From Candidatus Chloroploca sp. Khr17 (GTDB taxonomy: Bacteria > Chloroflexota > Chloroflexia > Chloroflexales > Chloroflexaceae), in contig NZ_RYFF01000056.1 of assembly GCF_004138165.1 (NCBI RefSeq), positions 1 through 32,455 on the forward strand: a DNA stretch of 32,455 nucleotides, written 5' to 3'. Under the pieces are notes generated by a model, which worked only from the letters and a program-made list of their open reading frames with translations, was not told the DNA's origin and made no database searches. Positions 5,538 through 13,203 of the stretch are shown piece after piece. The position numbers and the translations under genes were made by a program. Numbering within the stretch: position 1 is the first letter of the stretch; each line of letters starts with the position of its first letter.

Positions 5538-5578
5538 TGCCGCTCAGCACGCAAGCGAAGCTTGCGTGCTGAGCGGCA
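5538..5578. terminator. Perfect 19-bp hairpin between convergent genes
   Basis: Arms 5538-5556 and 5560-5578 are perfectly complementary around a GAA triloop. It sits between the stops of the AIM24 gene (5531) and mch (5618), where a two-way terminator is expected. The T-run lies before the stem on the plus strand (5533-5538), so neither strand has a classic U-tract after the hairpin. It may end transcription through stem strength alone, or serve to protect the 3' ends. Confidence 0.55.
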
Positions 5579-5617: not shown

Positions 5618-6679
5618 TTAGGCGGTGCGGCGGGGCATGAGCACGGTGTAATCAACGTCGAGCACGACGGCGGGATCATAGGTGCCTGCACTATCCTGGT
5701 AGAGAAAATCGGAGGCAGCGTGATCTTTGAGGGCAACGGTGCGAACACGTAACGCACCAAAATCGGTGCGGCCCGGCAAGGGCTCGTGCGCAAGGATCTC
5801 GGACCAGGCGTAGATGGTGTCGCCGGCAAAGGTCGGGTTGGTGTGACGCCCCCCGTTGATCGCCGCGATGCTGAGTGCATTGGCTAACCCGTTGAACGAG
5901 AGCGCCCGGGCGAGGCTGATGATGTGGCCGCCATAAATGATGCGGCGACCAAAACGGCCCTCGCGTTCAACATGCTGATTGAAGTGAACACGGGCGGTAT
6001 TCTGGTAGAGGCGCGCCGCCAGCATATGTTCGGCCTCTTCAATGGTGATGCCATCAACGTGATCAATGCGCTCGCCAACCTCGTAGTCTTCCCAGAGATA
6101 GGGACTGCCTGCGAGATCGGTATCATAACTGCCTGGCGTCAACGCATAGGGAACGTGCAGGTCGGCCACATCAACCGCTTCGACCAGCGTTGGGATCACC
6201 GGCTCGGGGGCGGGGGCCTCCAGGTTCTTTTTGCGTACCATCACCCAGCGCGTATATTCAACGACCATTTGATGGTGCTGGTTTGAGCCAACGGAACGCA
6301 CATAGACAACGCCGGTCTTGCCATCACGATTCTGGCGCAGACCAAGCACCGTCGAGCGGGTCGTGATCGTATCACCAGGATAGACTGGTTGCCCAAAACG
6401 GCCATTGGCATAGCCGAGATTGGCGATGGCATTGAGCGAAATGTCGGGCACGGTTTTGCCAAAGACGATATGGAACGTCAGCATGCTATCGAGGGGCGCA
6501 CGCTCGAGGCCAAGCGTCTGGGCAAAGGGCGTCGAACTGTTGAGCGCAAACCGCGAACCAAAGAGCGCCGTATAGAGCGCCACATCGCCCTCGGTGACGG
6601 TACGCGGCGTTGCGTGGATCAACTCTTGACCAACATAAAAATCCTCGAAAAAGTTCCCTGCTCTGGTTTTGCTAGGCAT
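5618..6679 (-). CDS. mch: Mesaconyl-C1-CoA hydratase (beta-methylmalyl-CoA dehydratase)
   Basis: This 353-residue protein has two MaoC-like hotdog halves, beginning F-F-E-D-F-Y-V-G-Q-E-L-x-H and, in the second half, L-W-E-D-Y-E-V-G-E-R-I-D-H. It removes water from beta-methylmalyl-CoA to give mesaconyl-C1-CoA in the glyoxylate-assimilation half of the 3-hydroxypropionate bicycle. Length and position next to mcl and mct match the Chloroflexus aurantiacus enzyme. The open frame extends to 6793, but ATG 6679 has AAGGAG 6 bases upstream and begins M-P-S-K-T-R-A-G-N-F, so I use it. Unlike the other operon genes it is separated from its upstream neighbour by 377 bp full of palindromic repeats. Confidence 0.93.
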   Translation of the reverse strand: MPSKTRAGNFFEDFYVGQELIHATPRTVTEGDVALYTALFGSRFALNSSTPFAQTLGLERAPLDSMLTFHIVFGKTVPDISLNAIANLGYANGRFGQPVYPGDTITTRSTVLGLRQNRDGKTGVVYVRSVGSNQHHQMVVEYTRWVMVRKKNLEAPAPEPVIPTLVEAVDVADLHVPYALTPGSYDTDLAGSPYLWEDYEVGERIDHVDGITIEEAEHMLAARLYQNTARVHFNQHVEREGRFGRRIIYGGHIISLARALSFNGLANALSIAAINGGRHTNPTFAGDTIYAWSEILAHEPLPGRTDFGALRVRTVALKDHAASDFLYQDSAGTYDPAVVLDVDYTVLMPRRTA

Positions 6680-6772
6680 CGCTGCTCCTTGAAATTGGAT
6701 CCGGCGCAGGGCGCTGAAACCCATGTGTATAAATGTTCGTGGTGTGTGAAGGGAGTTTTCTGACAGCCCTTG

Positions 6773-6856
6773 CCGACCACGAATATTGATCACGAATAAA
6801 CGAATATGGGCTGCCCCATGCGCTCTTCGTTTTTTTGTGGCCCCGTTCGTGGTCGG
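6773..6856. repeat. 84-bp MITE-like element, copy 1
   Basis: It begins CCGACCACGAATATTGA and ends TTCGTGGTCGG, so the ends are inverted repeats. An equally long copy with a few substitutions lies at 21270-21353. Similarity continues for about 20 bases beyond the right end (gacgccag then aaact) in both copies. No coding capacity; it may be a non-autonomous transposable element. Confidence 0.8.
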
Positions 6857-6912
6857 CTGAGGACGCCAGGAAACTTAGTAGTTTGTGAACTAAATTTCCT
6901 GATACTTCGCGC

Positions 6913-6957
6913 CCTGGGAGCGCGGGCGTCCCGCCCGCTGATGCCCGCGCTCCCAGG
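6913..6957. repeat. GC-rich REP-like hairpin (cctgggagcgcgggc), copy 1
   Basis: Arms 6913-6927 and 6943-6957 are perfect 15-bp complements. The same CCTGGGAGC core recurs at about 22329-22365 and 28648-28711. This is a repetitive extragenic palindrome family spread through the window. Confidence 0.85.
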
Positions 6958-6993
6958 CCAGTCGTGCCGCAAGAAACAGGGCGAGTGCCCGTC

Positions 6994-7026
6994 AGACTTC
7001 ACAGGTTTTGAAGACCTGTGAAGTCT
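6994..7026. repeat. 33-nt palindrome in operon gap, copy 1
   Basis: AGACTTCACAGGT and its exact complement ACCTGTGAAGTCT flank a 7-nt centre (tttgaag). A homologous 33-nt palindrome lies at 9347-9379 in another gap of the same operon. Confidence 0.85.
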
Positions 7027-7056
7027 CTTCTCGTCCTTATTTGAAAGGTCTTGCCC

Positions 7057-8100
7057 CTAGAGTCCGTAGGCTTCGGCCAGTTCGGGGTCTTTTTTGGCGA
7101 CGAGGCGAGCGAGGTCAACAATGACCTTGGCCTGTTTCCAGGTGGCGTCATCTTGCATTTTGCCGTCGATCATCGCAACGCCGGCCCCGTCGGGCATCGC
7201 TTCGAGGATGCGTTTGGCAAAGAGAACTTCTTTGACATCGGGGCTAAAGACGCGGCGGGCAATCGGGATTTGATTCGGGGCAAGCGACCAGGCCCCCGTG
7301 CAACCCATGAGAAAGGCATTGCGGAACTGCGACTCGCAGGCTGCTTCATCTTTGAGGTCGCCAAATGGCCCGTAGAAGGCGCGGATGCCATGCGCAACAC
7401 AGGCGTCGACCATACGGGCAACGGTATAGTGCCAGAGATCCTGCTGATAGAAGGCGCGCTCGGTCTGGCCTTCGACGGGATCGGTGAGCACACCGTAGAA
7501 AGGATGGCCGCCGCCGACGCGGGTGGTCTTCATCCCGCGTGACGCGGCGAGATCGGCTGGGCCAAGGCTGAGCCCGTGCATCCGGGGGCTTGCGCCGGCG
7601 ATCTGCTCGACATTCTTGACCCCTTCGGCTGTTTCGAGCAGGGCGTGCAAGAGGATCGGCTTCTGCACGCCATACCGTGCTTCAAGCAGGGCGAGGTACT
7701 GGTCAGCAAAATGAATATCCCAGGGGCCTTCGACCTTGGGGAGCATGATCACATCGAGGCGATTGCCCACGGCTTTGACAATCTGGTCCATATCATCGAG
7801 GATCCACGGGCTATTGAGGGCATTGACGCGCACCCAGATGGCGGTCTCGGGGGCATCGAGGGTCGCAATGGCCTCGATAAAGCCAGCGCGGGCGGCTTCT
7901 TTGGCATCAAGCGGGATTGCATCTTCGAGGTTGCCGCAGAGCACATCAACCTGGCGGGCCGTTTCGGGCAGACGGGCGCGGATCTTCTCGATATGGGGCG
8001 GAAAAAAATGGATCATCCGCTCGGGGCGAATCGGCAACTCGCGCAGCGGCTGCGGGGCGCCGGTCGCCAGCGGCTTATAGAAATTCACGGGTAGCTTCAT
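7057..8100 (-). CDS. mcl: (S)-malyl-CoA / beta-methylmalyl-CoA / (S)-citramalyl-CoA lyase
   Basis: This 347-residue HpcH/HpaI-CitE-family lyase is almost the same length as the trifunctional Chloroflexus enzyme. Visible family motifs are C-G-N-L-E-D-A-I-P, the magnesium-ligand glutamate in H-A-L-L-E-T-A-E-G, and the aspartate in [10 protein letters not shown]. It cleaves malyl-CoA to acetyl-CoA and glyoxylate, joins glyoxylate to propionyl-CoA, and finally splits citramalyl-CoA to acetyl-CoA and pyruvate, so it acts three times in the bicycle. It starts 15 bp after mct, with AAAGGAG ahead of ATG 8100. No missing residues are evident. Confidence 0.95.
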
Positions 8101-8115
8101 TCTGGTCTCCTTTGA

Positions 8116-9333
8116 TCAGGCAGGCCCTGCAACGATGCCATCATCGTGCAGTTTGCCGACTTCAGCCTCGCTCAGGCCAAGCATGTCGAGCAGGATTTCG
8201 TCGGTATGTTCGCCGAGGCGTGGCGCAGGCGTCACGGGGAACCGTGGAACCTGGCTAAAAGCGAGCGGCGAGCCAGCGGCGAGGTAGGTGCCAAGGCCGG
8301 GTTGTTCAAGCAGCGCGAACATCGGATTGTCGGTCGAGCAATCAGGATCTTCGGCGAGTGCCTCGCGGACGCTGCGATAGGGCGCCCAGGTGACCCGGTG
8401 AGCCTCGAAGATCTGACTAATCTCGGCGAGGGTGCGGGCGCGAAACCAGGGATCAAGCAAATCAGCGAGGGCGTGACGAGCGCGGAAACGATTGCCCTCT
8501 TGAGCGAGATCAAGCCCGAGGCGCTGGCCTAGGGCCGCAAACTGCTCGGCCATCCCCGTCGCCTTCGTCAGGCAACTCCACTGCAAACTGGTCAAACCAA
8601 CGACCATGACATGCTTGCCATCAAGCGTCTCAAAATCGCGCCCAAAGGCCCCATAGAGATAGTTGCCCTGACGCGGGCGATCGGTATCGTTGACCATCAC
8701 CTCGGCGATCATGCCAAGATGCCCAAGCATCGCCAGACCAACATCCTTGAGCGCCAGCTTGACCAATTGACCCTCGCCAGTCAAGCGGCGATGGCGCTCG
8801 GCGGCGAGGATCGCCACCGCGATCATCTGCCCAGCAATGAAATCCCAGGCTGGCAAGACATGATTGACCGGCTCGGGCGTACTGGTTGGCCCAGTCATGA
8901 ACGGAAAGCCGAGTTGCGGATTGATCGTATAGTCAACGTCCGAGCCACCATCGCGGCGACCGAGCAGATTGACCATCACGAGATCGGCGCGCTGCTTTTG
9001 CAGCGCCTCATAGCTGAGCCAACCGCGCGCCGGAAAATTGGTACTGAAGATGCCGCCCTCGTCACCGGGGAGCGCGATCAACTGCGTGAGCAACTCTTGC
9101 CCACGCGGATGGCGCAGATCAACGGCGATCGAGCGTTTGCCCTTATTGAGGCCAGCCCAGAAGAGACTCTGGCCGGTCTCGGTGACAGGCCAGCGACGAT
9201 AATCAAGACCCCCACCGATGGGATCGAAGCGGATGACATCGGCACCAAGTTGAGCCAGGGTCATCCCGCCGAGCGGGGCAGCGACGAAGGCCGAGCCCTC
9301 GATCACCCGCAGACCCTTGAGAATGCCTTGCAT
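8116..9333 (-). CDS. mct: Mesaconyl-CoA C1-C4 CoA transferase
   Basis: This 405-residue family III (CaiB/BaiF) CoA transferase moves CoA within mesaconyl-C1-CoA to give mesaconyl-C4-CoA. Asp164, in P-A-W-D-F-I-A-G-Q, falls at the nucleophilic aspartate position of the family. It is clearly divergent from the two Smt paralogues upstream, as expected for Mct. The assignment rests on family plus position between mcl and smtB. ATG 9333 is preceded by AGGA 8 bases upstream; this site abuts the palindrome at 9347-9379, so folding of the palindrome could affect access of ribosomes. Confidence 0.93.
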   Translation of the reverse strand: MQGILKGLRVIEGSAFVAAPLGGMTLAQLGADVIRFDPIGGGLDYRRWPVTETGQSLFWAGLNKGKRSIAVDLRHPRGQELLTQLIALPGDEGGIFSTNFPARGWLSYEALQKQRADLVMVNLLGRRDGGSDVDYTINPQLGFPFMTGPTSTPEPVNHVLPAWDFIAGQMIAVAILAAERHRRLTGEGQLVKLALKDVGLAMLGHLGMIAEVMVNDTDRPRQGNYLYGAFGRDFETLDGKHVMVVGLTSLQWSCLTKATGMAEQFAALGQRLGLDLAQEGNRFRARHALADLLDPWFRARTLAEISQIFEAHRVTWAPYRSVREALAEDPDCSTDNPMFALLEQPGLGTYLAAGSPLAFSQVPRFPVTPAPRLGEHTDEILLDMLGLSEAEVGKLHDDGIVAGPA

Positions 9334-9346
9334 AGTTATTCCTGTG

Positions 9347-9379
9347 AGACCTCACCGGTCTTGAAGACCGGCGAGGTCT
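9347..9379. repeat. 33-nt palindrome in operon gap, copy 2
   Basis: AGACCTC-a-CCGGTCT pairs with AGACCGG-c-GAGGTCT around tga, with one mismatched pair. It fills most of the 60-bp gap between smtB and mct and is the same family as 6994-7026. Confidence 0.85.
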
Positions 9380-9393
9380 GACGCATGCCAGCG

Positions 9394-10614
9394 TTAAATA
9401 ACCCGTTTCTGGCGAAGTTCAGCGATCTGTTGTTCGTCCATGCCAAGCAGTTCGGTCAGAACTTCGGTGGTATGCTCGCCGAGTTTCGGGCCGAGACTGC
9501 GCAGGCTACCGGGGGTTTCCGAGAGCTTGGGAATTGTTGACGGGACAATGACGGTTTCACCGGTATCCGGGACATCAACCGCCATCAAGTTGCGGCGAGC
9601 GTGAAACTGGCGGTCGCCGAAGATATCGGCAATGTTGTTGAGTGGTCCGGCGGGCGTCCCGGTCTCATAACAGCGGTCAAGCACCTCATCGCGCGTGAGT
9701 GAACCACACCAGTCGCGAACAATCTCATTAACATCGTGGCGATGTTCGAGGCGCGTCTTCTGTTCGCCATAGGTACTCGACGAGGCGAGCTCGGGCCTGC
9801 CCATAGCCAAGGCGAGGCGCGCAAAGAGCTTGTCGGTGGCACACGAGATCGCGACCCACTTGCCATCTTTGGTCGGGAAGTGGCCGTGCGGACAGGCGAA
9901 ATCGTTGTGTGATGGGCCGTGGCGTTCGCGAACGATGCCGTACATGCCATAAGCCGGGGCAAGTTCATCGGTACAACGAAAGACCGACTCGTAGAGTGCG
10001 GCATCAACATACTGACCTTGACCAGTGCGATCGCGATGGCGCAGCGCCAGCAACACACCGAGGCAGCCGTACAAACCCGTCATGTAATCACCAAGCGTCG
10101 TTGAGCCAGGCGTCACCGGGGTACCCCTGGGCATTCCGGCGAGATAGGCAATGCCACCGACGGCGTGAGCAACACGGGCAAACCCGGGACGATCCTTGTA
10201 GGGGCCGGTCTGGCCATAGCCAGTGACACGGAGCATAATCAGACCAGGATTGAGCTCGTGCAACACTTCCCAGCCGAGGCCCCATTTTTCGAGCGTACCG
10301 GGGCGAAAATTCTCACAGAGCACATCGCTCTGCGCGATCAGTTGCTTGAACACGGCCACGCCTTCGGGACGATGGAGGTCAATTGTTACTGAGCGCTTAT
10401 TGCGCGCCTCACTGAGCCAGGTCAGCGTATCGCCGCGCTGGCTGGGCGTCCCAAAGCGGCGCAGGGCATCACCGCCAACCGGATGCTCAACCTTCAACAC
10501 ATCAGCGCCAAACTCACCGAGCAGCGTCGCGCAGTAGGGGGCGGCAATCACCGTTGCCACATCAATGACACGAATGCCCGCCAGGGGCAACGCAGGTGCA
10601 GACTCTGCGGTCAT
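9394..10614 (-). CDS. smtB: Succinyl-CoA:(S)-malate CoA transferase, subunit B
   Basis: This 406-residue family III CoA transferase has the family start [10 protein letters not shown], the [13 protein letters not shown] segment, [13 protein letters not shown] and [10 protein letters not shown]. Asp176 in L-G-D-Y-M-T-G is the expected nucleophile. With SmtA it transfers CoA from succinyl-CoA to malate, giving malyl-CoA. The two subunits are close paralogues and both are needed for the Chloroflexus enzyme. It begins 14 bp after smtA, and its AAGGA ribosome site lies inside that short gap. Confidence 0.94.
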
Positions 10615-10628
10615 GGGTTATATCCTTC

Positions 10629-12029
10629 TCAAATAATCTTGTGCTGCCGCAGCCGTCGAATCTCGTCCGCCGTAATATCGAGCAGTTCGCGCATCACTTC
10701 ATAGGTCGCGTCGCCGAGGGGCGGCCCCAGGTTGGTAATGCGCCCGGGGGTTGCCGAAAGCGTCGGCACCACTGCGGGCACGACCACCTCACCGAGGCCC
10801 TCTTCCTCAAACCTGGCGAGATTGCCTCTGGCCTGAAAATGCTCATCTTCAAAGATATCGGCAATGCTATTGACCTTGCCGACGGGCACCTCTTTCTCGA
10901 GGCAGCGTTCGAGCACCTCGGCACGCGTGAGCGAACCGACCCACTCGATCACAATCTGATTGACCTGATCGCGGGCGGCGAGGCGCTTGCGCTGATCGCC
11001 GTAGAGCCCGGTCGTCGCGAGTTCAGACTGTTCCATCGCTTCAGCGAGGCGCTCGAACATCTTGTCGGTCGTACAAGCAATCGCGATCCACTTGTCATCT
11101 TTGGTGCGAAAATGGCCGTGGGGCACCGCGACAAAGCTGCCCGAGCCTTCGCGTTCGCGCACCTTGCCAAAAAGGCCATAGGCAGCCGCGATCTCATCGA
11201 GTTGACGAAAGACCGCCTCATAGATGCCGACATCAATCACCTGCCCGCGCCCGGTCTCCTCCTGATGGCGCAGCGCCACCAGCACCCCGATGATCCCATA
11301 GAGACTCGACATATAATCGCCGAGGGGCACGGTGCCGGGCAACACCGGCGTCTCACCAGGGAAACCGGCAAGATACGAGAGGCCGCCAAAGGCGTGGGCG
11401 ATGTGGGCAAACCCAGAGCGACGGCGGTAGGGGCCAGTCTGCCCATACCCCGAAACCCGCAGCACCACCAGGCGGGGATTCGCCTCACGCAACTGCTCCC
11501 AGCCAAGGCCCCACTCTTCCATCGTCCCGGGGCGAAAATTCTCGATCAGCACATCAGATTTGGCGATGAGCTTGAGAAAGATCTGCACGCCCTCTTTCTG
11601 GCGAAGATCGATGGTCACCGACTTCTTATTGCGCCCCTCACTAAGCCATGCAAGAGTCGCATCGTGACGCTTGGTTGGTGTCCCAAAACGGCGCATGGGA
11701 TCGCCGGAAATCGGGTGTTCAACCTTCAGCACCTCGGCACCAAACTCGCCCATAATCGAAGCCGCATACGGGCCAGCCAGGAAGTTGCCGACATCCACCA
11801 CGCGAATGCCACTCAGAGGTAACTGTTCGTGATCTGAAGGACGATCGGAAGGTGGGAGCGGCTTCACGTGCGGTTTCTCCTGGTGCTGCGCCGTTGAGGG
11901 TGGTGGTTGCGCTGGTTCAGCCTCAGGGGAAACCTGTGCTGCTCCTTCGCCCTCAGGCACCCCCGTTGCTGTCTCGGCAACGTCCGTCGCATCCGCCTGA
12001 TCCGTAGGAATACGCTCGCGCTTGCTCAA
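10629..12029 (-). CDS. smtA: Succinyl-CoA:(S)-malate CoA transferase, subunit A, TTG start
   Basis: This 466-residue paralogue of SmtB carries a low-complexity N-terminal extension of about 68 residues rich in Pro, Glu, Ala and Gln. The CoA-transferase core begins at L-S-G-I-R-V-V-D-V-G. Asp238 in L-G-D-Y-M-S-S matches Asp176 of SmtB. An extended N-terminus distinguishes SmtA from SmtB in Chloroflexus too. The start is TTG at 12029 with a strong GGAGG 7 bases upstream; there is no ATG before residue 93, which lies within the core. It is the first gene of the operon smtA-smtB-mct-mcl-mch. Confidence 0.93.
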   Translation of the reverse strand: MSKRERIPTDQADATDVAETATGVPEGEGAAQVSPEAEPAQPPPSTAQHQEKPHVKPLPPSDRPSDHEQLPLSGIRVVDVGNFLAGPYAASIMGEFGAEVLKVEHPISGDPMRRFGTPTKRHDATLAWLSEGRNKKSVTIDLRQKEGVQIFLKLIAKSDVLIENFRPGTMEEWGLGWEQLREANPRLVVLRVSGYGQTGPYRRRSGFAHIAHAFGGLSYLAGFPGETPVLPGTVPLGDYMSSLYGIIGVLVALRHQEETGRGQVIDVGIYEAVFRQLDEIAAAYGLFGKVREREGSGSFVAVPHGHFRTKDDKWIAIACTTDKMFERLAEAMEQSELATTGLYGDQRKRLAARDQVNQIVIEWVGSLTRAEVLERCLEKEVPVGKVNSIADIFEDEHFQARGNLARFEEEGLGEVVVPAVVPTLSATPGRITNLGPPLGDATYEVMRELLDITADEIRRLRQHKII

Positions 12030-12055
12030 CGATTTGCCTCCGCTTCAATATGTAT

Positions 12056-12080
12056 GCATATCGCCCTCGATATGCGTCAA
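12056..12080 (-). promoter_or_regulatory. smtA operon promoter with overlapping inverted-repeat operator
   Basis: The minus strand has TTGACG (complement of 12075-12080) as a -35 box. Immediately downstream lies the perfect inverted repeat GCATATCG-N4-CGATATGC (12056-12075), filling the expected spacer. The -10 is weak: GCATAC or CATACA at 17-18 bp spacing. A weak -10 with an operator in the spacer fits a regulated promoter, either repressed or activated by spacer-bending regulators. No regulator gene is adjacent. Confidence 0.5.
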
Positions 12081-12128
12081 GACACATCACGCAAAGAAGT
12101 TCAGGGAGTCACTTTTTTGGGGTAGCAA

Positions 12129-12137
12129 TGTTATAAT
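12129..12137 (+). promoter_or_regulatory. Extended -10 promoter element for meh
   Basis: TGTTATAAT is a perfect extended -10 (TG at 12129-12130, TATAAT at 12132-12137) about 115 bases upstream of meh. A recognisable -35 is missing at 17-bp spacing, which extended -10 promoters tolerate. holB has the same type of promoter (13204-13212). Confidence 0.6.
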
Positions 12138-12181
12138 GTCGAATTATATGTCAGAATATCATCAGATGCAAAGTTGGAGCG

Positions 12182-12224
12182 GTGCGCTTACACCGACCAG
12201 CGATGCTGGTCGGTGTAAGCGCAC
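12182..12224 (+). promoter_or_regulatory. Perfect 20-bp hairpin in the meh leader
   Basis: Arms 12182-12201 and 12205-12224 are perfectly complementary around a GAT triloop. It lies between the -10 element and the ribosome site of meh and has no U-tract after it. It could be an attenuator, an RNA-stability element, or a barrier for transcription between the divergent units. The triloop design matches the hairpins that end mch (5538-5578) and meh (13110-13156). Confidence 0.6.
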
Positions 12225-12253
12225 GATAGATCCTCCGGCTAAGGAAGCAAACA

Positions 12254-13102
12254 ATGAGTGACGCAGAGGCAACGTTCAGCAGTTGGATCGGTACCACCGA
12301 ACTGCTGGAAGACGATCTGAGTCCCGCGCAGGCATATGCGGCGGCGGCAACGCTTGATGATACGACCACCATGATCAACGGCAACGCGACGCTGCCGCCA
12401 TTGTGGCACTGGTTCTATTTTGTGCCCCGCGCCCCACAGTCAAAACTGAGTAGTGACGGGCACCCCGAACGCGGCGGGTTTCTGCCGCCGATTCCGTATC
12501 CACGTCGCATGTTTGCTGGTGCGCGACTTACATTCTATCGCCCTTTGCTGCTCGGGCGAACAGCTCAGCGCAAGGGCGAGATCCGCAATATCGTGCAAAA
12601 GTCAGGGCGCAGTGGCAACCTAGCCTTTGTCACCGTTGGCTACCAGTTTTACCAGCAAGGCATCCTCTGCCTTGAAGAAGAGCAGGACATCGTCTACCGC
12701 GAGCCCGGGCCACCAGTGCCCGCGCCGGTGCCCGCCGAACTCCCCCCGGTTCCCGAGGGAGCGTGGACGCGCACCGTCACACCCGATCCGCGGTTGCTCT
12801 TTCGCTTTTCGGCCCTGACCTTCAACGCGCACCGCATTCACTACGACCGGCCCTATGCGACCAATGAAGAGGGTTATCCAGGACTGGTCGTGCATGGCCC
12901 CCTGACGGCCGTGCTGCTGCTCGAACTGGTACGCCACTCGACCAACCGCCGCATCACGGGCTTTAGCTTTCGCGGCCAGGCCCCGCTCTTTGACCTAGCC
13001 CCCTTCCGTCTCGTCGCCACGCCCGAAGAAGAGCGCGTCATGCTTGAAGCCCAGGGGCCCGATGGGAGAGTTGCGCTGAGCGCAGTTGCCGAGCTTGGGT
13101 AG
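12254..13102 (+). CDS. meh: Mesaconyl-C4-CoA hydratase
   Basis: This 282-residue HTD2-like double-hotdog hydratase contains the motif F-N-A-H-R-I-H-Y-D in the second half, holding the catalytic His/Asp region of the R-hydratase type, then G-L-V-V-H-G-P-L. It adds water to mesaconyl-C4-CoA to give (S)-citramalyl-CoA, the last substrate of Mcl. It faces away from smtA across a 224-bp control region. The same six-gene set is clustered in Chloroflexus. ATG 12254 has AAGGA about 9 bases upstream. It could in principle be another HTD2-family hydratase, but the context makes Meh very likely. Confidence 0.92.
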   Translation: MSDAEATFSSWIGTTELLEDDLSPAQAYAAAATLDDTTTMINGNATLPPLWHWFYFVPRAPQSKLSSDGHPERGGFLPPIPYPRRMFAGARLTFYRPLLLGRTAQRKGEIRNIVQKSGRSGNLAFVTVGYQFYQQGILCLEEEQDIVYREPGPPVPAPVPAELPPVPEGAWTRTVTPDPRLLFRFSALTFNAHRIHYDRPYATNEEGYPGLVVHGPLTAVLLLELVRHSTNRRITGFSFRGQAPLFDLAPFRLVATPEEERVMLEAQGPDGRVALSAVAELG

Positions 13103-13109
13103 GAGGTTT

Positions 13110-13156
13110 GCTTGTCCTGCAAAAAGCCAGCTACGCTGGCTTTTTGCAAGACAAGC
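13110..13156 (+). terminator. Terminator hairpin after meh
   Basis: GCTTGTC-c-TGCAAAAAGCCAGC pairs with the returning arm around TAC, with one mismatch. The inner part, AAAAAGCCAGC-tac-GCTGGCTTTTT, has T-runs at the stem ends on both strands, so it may work in both directions. It lies 7 bases after the meh stop codon. Confidence 0.75.
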
Positions 13157-13203
13157 AGAGAGGAGGGAGGGGCACTAGGGCGCAGGTGCTGCGCCCCGCG
13201 TGA

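Follow-up and report, generated by a model that had tools for sequence, protein, structure and literature searches.

Does the block of coenzyme A (CoA) ester genes in Candidatus Chloroploca sp. Khr17 belong to the autotrophic 3-hydroxypropionate bicycle, or to another route that uses similar enzymes? We analyzed a window of 32,455 nucleotides (the whole stretch of DNA studied; contig C5, NZ_RYFF01000056.1) that carries smtA, smtB, mct, mcl, mch, and meh, together with the host genome G000 (6,376,501 bases in 171 contigs, 100% complete, 1.3% contaminated). We found the six genes, with their order and family memberships, and two partner enzymes encoded elsewhere in the genome, malonyl-CoA reductase (Mcr) and propionyl-CoA synthase (PCS). 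Judged by sequence, the locus is almost certainly the standard cluster for glyoxylate assimilation in the autotrophic 3-hydroxypropionate bicycle, and the same genome encodes both diagnostic enzymes of the first cycle. The cluster is an ordinary one of a known kind, and the genus, whose members are green filamentous phototrophs, is already reported to have the pathway.

In this branch, SmtA and SmtB transfer CoA from succinyl-CoA to malate, and Mcl cleaves the malyl-CoA into acetyl-CoA and glyoxylate and also joins glyoxylate to propionyl-CoA. Mch dehydrates this condensation product to mesaconyl-C1-CoA, Mct shifts the CoA to the C4 carboxyl of mesaconyl-CoA, and Meh hydrates the product to citramalyl-CoA, which Mcl splits into acetyl-CoA and pyruvate. 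Propionyl-CoA would be made from malonyl-CoA via Mcr and PCS, encoded outside the cluster. From the gene content, we infer that the pathway would be expressed, active, and carrying flux.

Identity of the six genes

The preliminary description of this DNA had proposed that smtA-smtB-mct-mcl-mch run leftward and that meh diverges from them. All six open reading frames (ORFs) were found in that arrangement, with family matches far beyond chance (Table 1). Pfam, NCBIfam, and solved-structure searches concur on the families, the last of these covering all proteins but SmtA. The identification of Mct is certain, as its score clears the curated 725-bit cut-off for 2-methylfumaryl-CoA isomerase, and Mch, Mcl, and Mct align with solved structures over almost their full length. 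The Mch homologue 8hgn is named 'Beta-methylmalyl-CoA dehydratase', and the mcl gene is the sole match in the host genome at E <= 0.001.

Compared with the cluster in G007, a Chloroflexus genome of 5,258,541 bp that we take to be Chloroflexus aurantiacus J-10-fl, the six proteins show 73-83% identity, and the genes stand in the same order and orientations. The claim that no unrelated gene lies between mct and smtB also held, since only 60 nt separate them in the window; in contrast, G007 has about 1.15 kb there without a convincing gene. Within that G007 interval (L243, about 7890-9039), similar stretches recur in several frames, a pattern expected of repeated DNA. For Chloroflexus aurantiacus, mch, mcl, smtB, smtA, and meh are placed between Caur_0173 (mch) and Caur_0180 (meh) in the available part of PMC3150298.

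It had further been stated that every enzyme of the glyoxylate branch is present with its expected catalytic residues. All the enzymes were found, and the residues are kept in Mct, the one enzyme checked. Here, Leu43, Arg47, Tyr135, and Asp164 align with Leu43, Arg47, Tyr136, and Asp165 of the G007 protein (offset by a one-residue gap), the roles of which are taken from the accessible part of PMC9813914.

Table 1. Features of the glyoxylate-assimilation cluster and its intergenic regions (positions in the window)
Feature	Coordinates	Strand	Evidence
smtA	10629..12029	-	PF02515 E 8.5e-115; 81% identity over 400 residues (conserved part) to the G007 gene at the corresponding position
smtB, partner CoA-transferase subunit, 406 amino acids	9394..10614	-	PF02515 E 9.7e-117; 81% identity over 398 residues to G007
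mct	8116..9333	-	TIGR04253 788.8 bits; 8apq E 1.2e-227; key residues kept
mcl, malyl-CoA/beta-methylmalyl-CoA/citramalyl-CoA lyase, 347 amino acids	7057..8100	-	6kin E 1.1e-205; 4l7z E 1.3e-205; 83% identity to G007
mch, beta-methylmalyl-CoA dehydratase (mesaconyl-C1-CoA hydratase)	5618..6679, probable start (ORF to 6793)	-	4e3e E 4.1e-182; 8hgn E 2.3e-136
meh, mesaconyl-C4-CoA hydratase, 282 amino acids	12254..13102	+	73% identity over 275 residues to the likewise divergent G007 gene at the matching place
mcl-mch gap, 377 nt, three inverted repeats	6680..7056	-	hairpin-rich
Promoter-like TTTGCA-18-TATAAT facing smtA	12143..12172	-	consensus scan 10/12; 4 sites against 2.3 expected in the region (weak)
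Perfect 20-bp inverted repeat, 3-nt loop, upstream of meh	12182..12224		fold z -7.59 (101-nt stretch)

Several observations weaken parts of this picture. No NCBIfam model scored above its cut-off for SmtA or SmtB, and Meh had no Pfam model above the cut-off and no NCBIfam match. The solved homologues of Meh are 8huc (E 5.8e-68) and 8khg (E 8.1e-68), the latter named after a different substrate ('Itaconyl-CoA hydratase'). The names of SmtA, SmtB, and Meh, none of which passes a curated cut-off, are based on identity, position, and the conserved gene order, and in the case of Meh also on the solved homologue. The last such point concerns the single leftward unit that had been claimed. The gaps of 14 nt (smtA-smtB), 60 nt (smtB-mct), and 15 nt (mct-mcl) make one unit plausible for smtA-smtB-mct-mcl. 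However, the mcl-mch gap and its inverted repeats make the co-transcription of mch uncertain and weaken the claim of a single operon. This gap is about 120-130 nt in two sister species and is also shorter in G007. Nothing that counts against the identity of the cluster itself was found.

The itaconate name raises the alternative that these transferases, lyase, and hydratases serve another route of mesaconate or itaconate degradation. Loci where mct has only distant mcl or mch neighbours do exist (e.g., L091, L095, L101), in line with such a route, as is the name of one of the two close solved Meh homologues. Against this, Mct passes its curated cut-off, and the six proteins match the Chloroflexus set at the identities given above and in the same order, which makes this route highly improbable here. 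A different CoA-transferase pathway was rejected on the same two grounds, the Mct cut-off and the identity to the Chloroflexus set.

Partner enzymes and the reading of the pathway

The absence of Mcr and PCS from the rest of the genome had been named as a result that would speak against this reading. The whole-genome search found both on other contigs. Mcr (G000:C163:8319-11996, 1226 amino acids) and PCS (G000:C1:311145-316622, 1826 amino acids) are full length and have no internal stops. Two PF00106 (short-chain dehydrogenase/reductase) matches lie within one 1261-residue frame, which is the bifunctional build of about 1220 residues expected for Mcr, and an AMP-binding match lies in a 1827-residue frame, which is the fused build of about 1820 residues expected for PCS. 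Full-length relatives of both occur in other Chloroflexales. The two enzymes are named on the basis of length, build, and general knowledge of such proteins. RuBisCO had no match in the host genome at E <= 1e-20. These searches agree with PMC6180586, the available part of which describes Candidatus Chloroploca as having 3-hydroxypropionate cycle genes and as being without Calvin cycle genes. Its gene content marks the host as a bicycle user.

In a rival reading, the cluster is a stand-alone, non-autotrophic module for organic acids that co-assimilates glyoxylate and propionyl-CoA, of the kind known from Accumulibacter-type genomes and Candidatus Kentron. Partial bicycles of this type are described in PMC6593406, which in the part available presents Kentron as such a case. 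We kept the best 80 of 421 mct relatives as loci and searched 50 of their genomes, all filed outside Chloroflexales; Chloroflexales and several others, mostly Accumulibacter, were excluded, and up to 13 Mcr and 9 PCS candidates were scored. Both enzymes were found in 16 genomes, PCS alone in one (L085), and neither in 33. In fifteen of the 50 (Accumulibacter, Propionivibrio, and other proteobacteria), mcl lies close to mct and neither enzyme was found; the cluster is whole in 7 of these and partial in 8. In another 18, no close mcl and mch accompany mct, although one of them, L081, is cut just past mct, too soon for its neighbours to be judged.

The partial bicycles of the Accumulibacter/Kentron type resemble the window in that mct stands close to mcl and, in most cases, mch; both smt genes are present in 11/15 and meh in 12/15. 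They differ from Chloroploca in that Mcr and PCS were not found (for Kentron, according to the accessible part of PMC6593406). The full-length Mcr and PCS of the host genome speak against a stand-alone module, and we regard that reading as very unlikely for Chloroploca. Alongside the bicycle, the cluster may additionally serve co-assimilation, by analogy with what PMC6593406, in the part available, says was proposed for Chloroflexus.

These counts set a base rate for judging a genome by the cluster or by mct alone. Because 15 of the 50 genomes carry the cluster without Mcr or PCS, the block alone is not proof of the bicycle. The earlier statement had offered a bicycle user or a recipient of the module; a bicycle user is right for this host, where both enzymes are present, but the block is not enough on its own to show it. 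Likewise, mct is a poor single marker, because 33 of the 50 mct-carrying genomes show neither enzyme.

Among the 16 genomes with both enzymes (Burkholderiales, Gemmatimonadaceae, Woeseiaceae, and Longimicrobiales), 11 have all six genes, as in Chloroploca; in four others the contig ends within the locus, and L077 shows only a single short smt stretch. The accessible part of PMC9802188 reports bicycles from Burkholderiales and Gemmatimonadota and places their glyoxylate genes in a conserved operon. In contrast to Chloroploca, where they lie on other contigs, mcr and pcs are sometimes at the cluster locus. In Burkholderiales or betaproteobacterial contigs, pcs and mcr adjoin the cluster after mch (L077, L080, L082, L089) or before meh (L083, L086).

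Two placements in this survey stand apart. The 4.8-kb contig L029 (PWUP01000308.1), from the one remaining genome of the 50 and filed as Gammaproteobacteria, has a cluster whose mct is sister to that of Chloroploca (support 99), and Mcr and PCS were not found in its 2.7-Mb genome; the contig probably derives from Chloroflexales and was misbinned. An alphaproteobacterial (L065) and an Anaerolineae (L066) metagenome-assembled genome have nearly identical mct genes (path 0.003), and one or the other may be misbinned.

Distribution in Chloroflexales

The gene order meh< smtA> smtB> mct> mcl> mch> is conserved. All six genes were found in this order in 19/29 Chloroflexales stretches read, and the other 10, which reach or nearly reach a contig end, keep the order with two to five of the genes. 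The comparison that had been proposed gave the same order in Chloroflexus and Roseiflexus. We surveyed 82 Chloroflexales genomes, fully scoring up to 8 Mcr and 5 PCS candidates per genome, so that absences are not certain. A true mct was found in 30 (at least 74% identity; the next best match is 33%), a true mcl in 29 (at least 80% identity), Mcr in 39, and PCS in 39. RuBisCO gave a strong match (E below 1e-130) in 12, weaker matches in 4 others being left out. Of the 30 mct-bearing genomes, 29 have Mcr and 27 have both enzymes; PCS was not found in G029 (88% complete) and G030 (99%), and neither enzyme in G066 (82%).

Ten of the 82 genomes have Mcr and PCS matches and no true mct or mcl, that is, the first cycle without the second (G010, G016, G018, G020, G021, G022, G025, G031, G032, G056). 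Since G021, G031, G032, and G056 are 97-100% complete (G056 with 6% contamination), missing contigs are an unlikely cause in these four. In family f1, which includes Chloroflexus and Chloroploca, mct and a strong RuBisCO match are rarely found together, in 2/41 genomes (Fisher p 0.005, uncorrected for kinship). These are G001 (9.3 Mb, 7% contaminated) and G030, which combines mct with a divergent Mcr and RuBisCO.

Among the best 80 of 421 relatives, the nearest named ones of Mct are Candidatus Chloroploca mongolica M50-1 (98%) and Candidatus Chloroploca asiatica B7-9 (97%). Both clusters (L027 and L028, respectively) have the same order, with a flanking holB and an AIM24-family gene in common. 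Within the genus, the six proteins are 95-100% identical (SmtA over its conserved part only). The preliminary description had allowed that the host might be a recipient of the module. This alternative is not needed, and transfer into Chloroploca alone was rejected, as the cluster falls among Chloroflexales in the tree and is conserved throughout the genus.

Proposed separate histories of the cluster and of Mcr and PCS

The cluster and its partner enzymes gave different trees. The six cluster proteins of G007 (Chloroflexus, f1) and G064 (Roseiflexus, family f4) are 85-94% identical, compared with 73-85% between the window and either genome, and Chloroflexus and Roseiflexus form one clade in the six-gene tree (support 100). 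In an approximately unbiased (AU) test, holding f1 together including Chloroflexus (12 rows versus 5) was rejected for the cluster (p 3.3e-7). Between Chloroflexus and Roseiflexus, Mcr is only 59% and PCS 74% identical (PCS with G067), and Chloroflexus groups with other f1 genera in both trees. Here, the constraint joining Chloroflexus with Roseiflexus was rejected (Mcr p 5.7e-7, PCS p 2.8e-4). The tests used reduced rows and the LG+G4 model, with groups named after the first tree was seen; for Mcr and PCS, G030 was dropped because of its long branch, and PCS had two Roseiflexus rows.

These trees suggest that the cluster passed between the lineages of Chloroflexus and Roseiflexus independently of its partners. 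Shared heat adaptation could instead have pulled the proteins of the two genera together, but this should then affect Mcr and PCS too. A simple account of two histories for cluster and partners is complicated by departures of Mcr and PCS from the family codes, against which, in place of a species tree, the discordance was read. Some f1 genera group with f4 (g6, g7, and g10 in Mcr; g3, g7, and g10 in PCS), indicating that Mcr and PCS may also have moved.

The Chloroploca cluster falls with Chloroflexales and adjoins the clusters of Burkholderiales and Gemmatimonadaceae (support 93). The latter are drawn inside Chloroflexales, whereas their Mcr and PCS are drawn outside. The AU test did not reject all Chloroflexales as one clade for the cluster (p 0.098), so this nesting stays a suggestion. 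We give about even chances to the wider proposal of a transferable cluster module whose history is apart from that of Mcr and PCS. It would have been exchanged whole between Chloroflexus and Roseiflexus, each keeping its own Mcr and PCS, and the Burkholderiales and Gemmatimonadaceae bicycles may have taken it from a Chloroflexales relative of Chloroploca. The available part of PMC5826079, citing Shih et al. 2017, describes carbon-fixation genes in Chloroflexi as moved by transfer. In the available parts of the literature searched, we found no statement of the Chloroflexus-Roseiflexus discordance, which is not proof that none is in print.

Gene starts, intergenic repeats, and meaning of the locus

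The mch ORF opens at GTG 6793, and its alignment to 4e3e begins only at residue 39 of this long form; mch therefore probably starts at ATG 6679, giving 353 amino acids. The smtA gene probably starts at TTG 12029 behind a GGAGG on the minus strand, which would give a predicted low-complexity N-terminal extension of 66 residues; SmtB of the window has none. In 15 Chloroflexales loci compared and L039, the SmtA extension spans roughly 35-90 residues by plausible starts. It seems shorter in L074, L082, and L084, where starts are unsure, and in L252 it holds a repeated stretch.

The divergent smtA-meh gap of 224 nt contains the promoter-like sequence and the perfect inverted repeat of Table 1. One genomic place matches the 30-base pattern of this repeat with up to 3 mismatches. 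The repeat is present in Candidatus Chloroploca asiatica with one arm change and a second palindrome, and absent in Candidatus Chloroploca mongolica. A role as a conserved regulator was rejected, as it is missing in one of three species and occurs at a single genomic place. Long palindromes with 3-nt loops lie in the gaps flanking the cluster at 12182-12224, 13109-13157, and 5538-5578, with arms of 20, 23, and 19 nt and complementarity of 100, 96, and 100%, respectively. No copies of the second palindrome type were found with a search pattern that missed the window's own copy too.

Taken together, the whole-genome search confirms the diagnostic bicycle genes in a Chloroploca, and the discordance between the trees of its two halves is relevant to how the two-cycle pathway was assembled.

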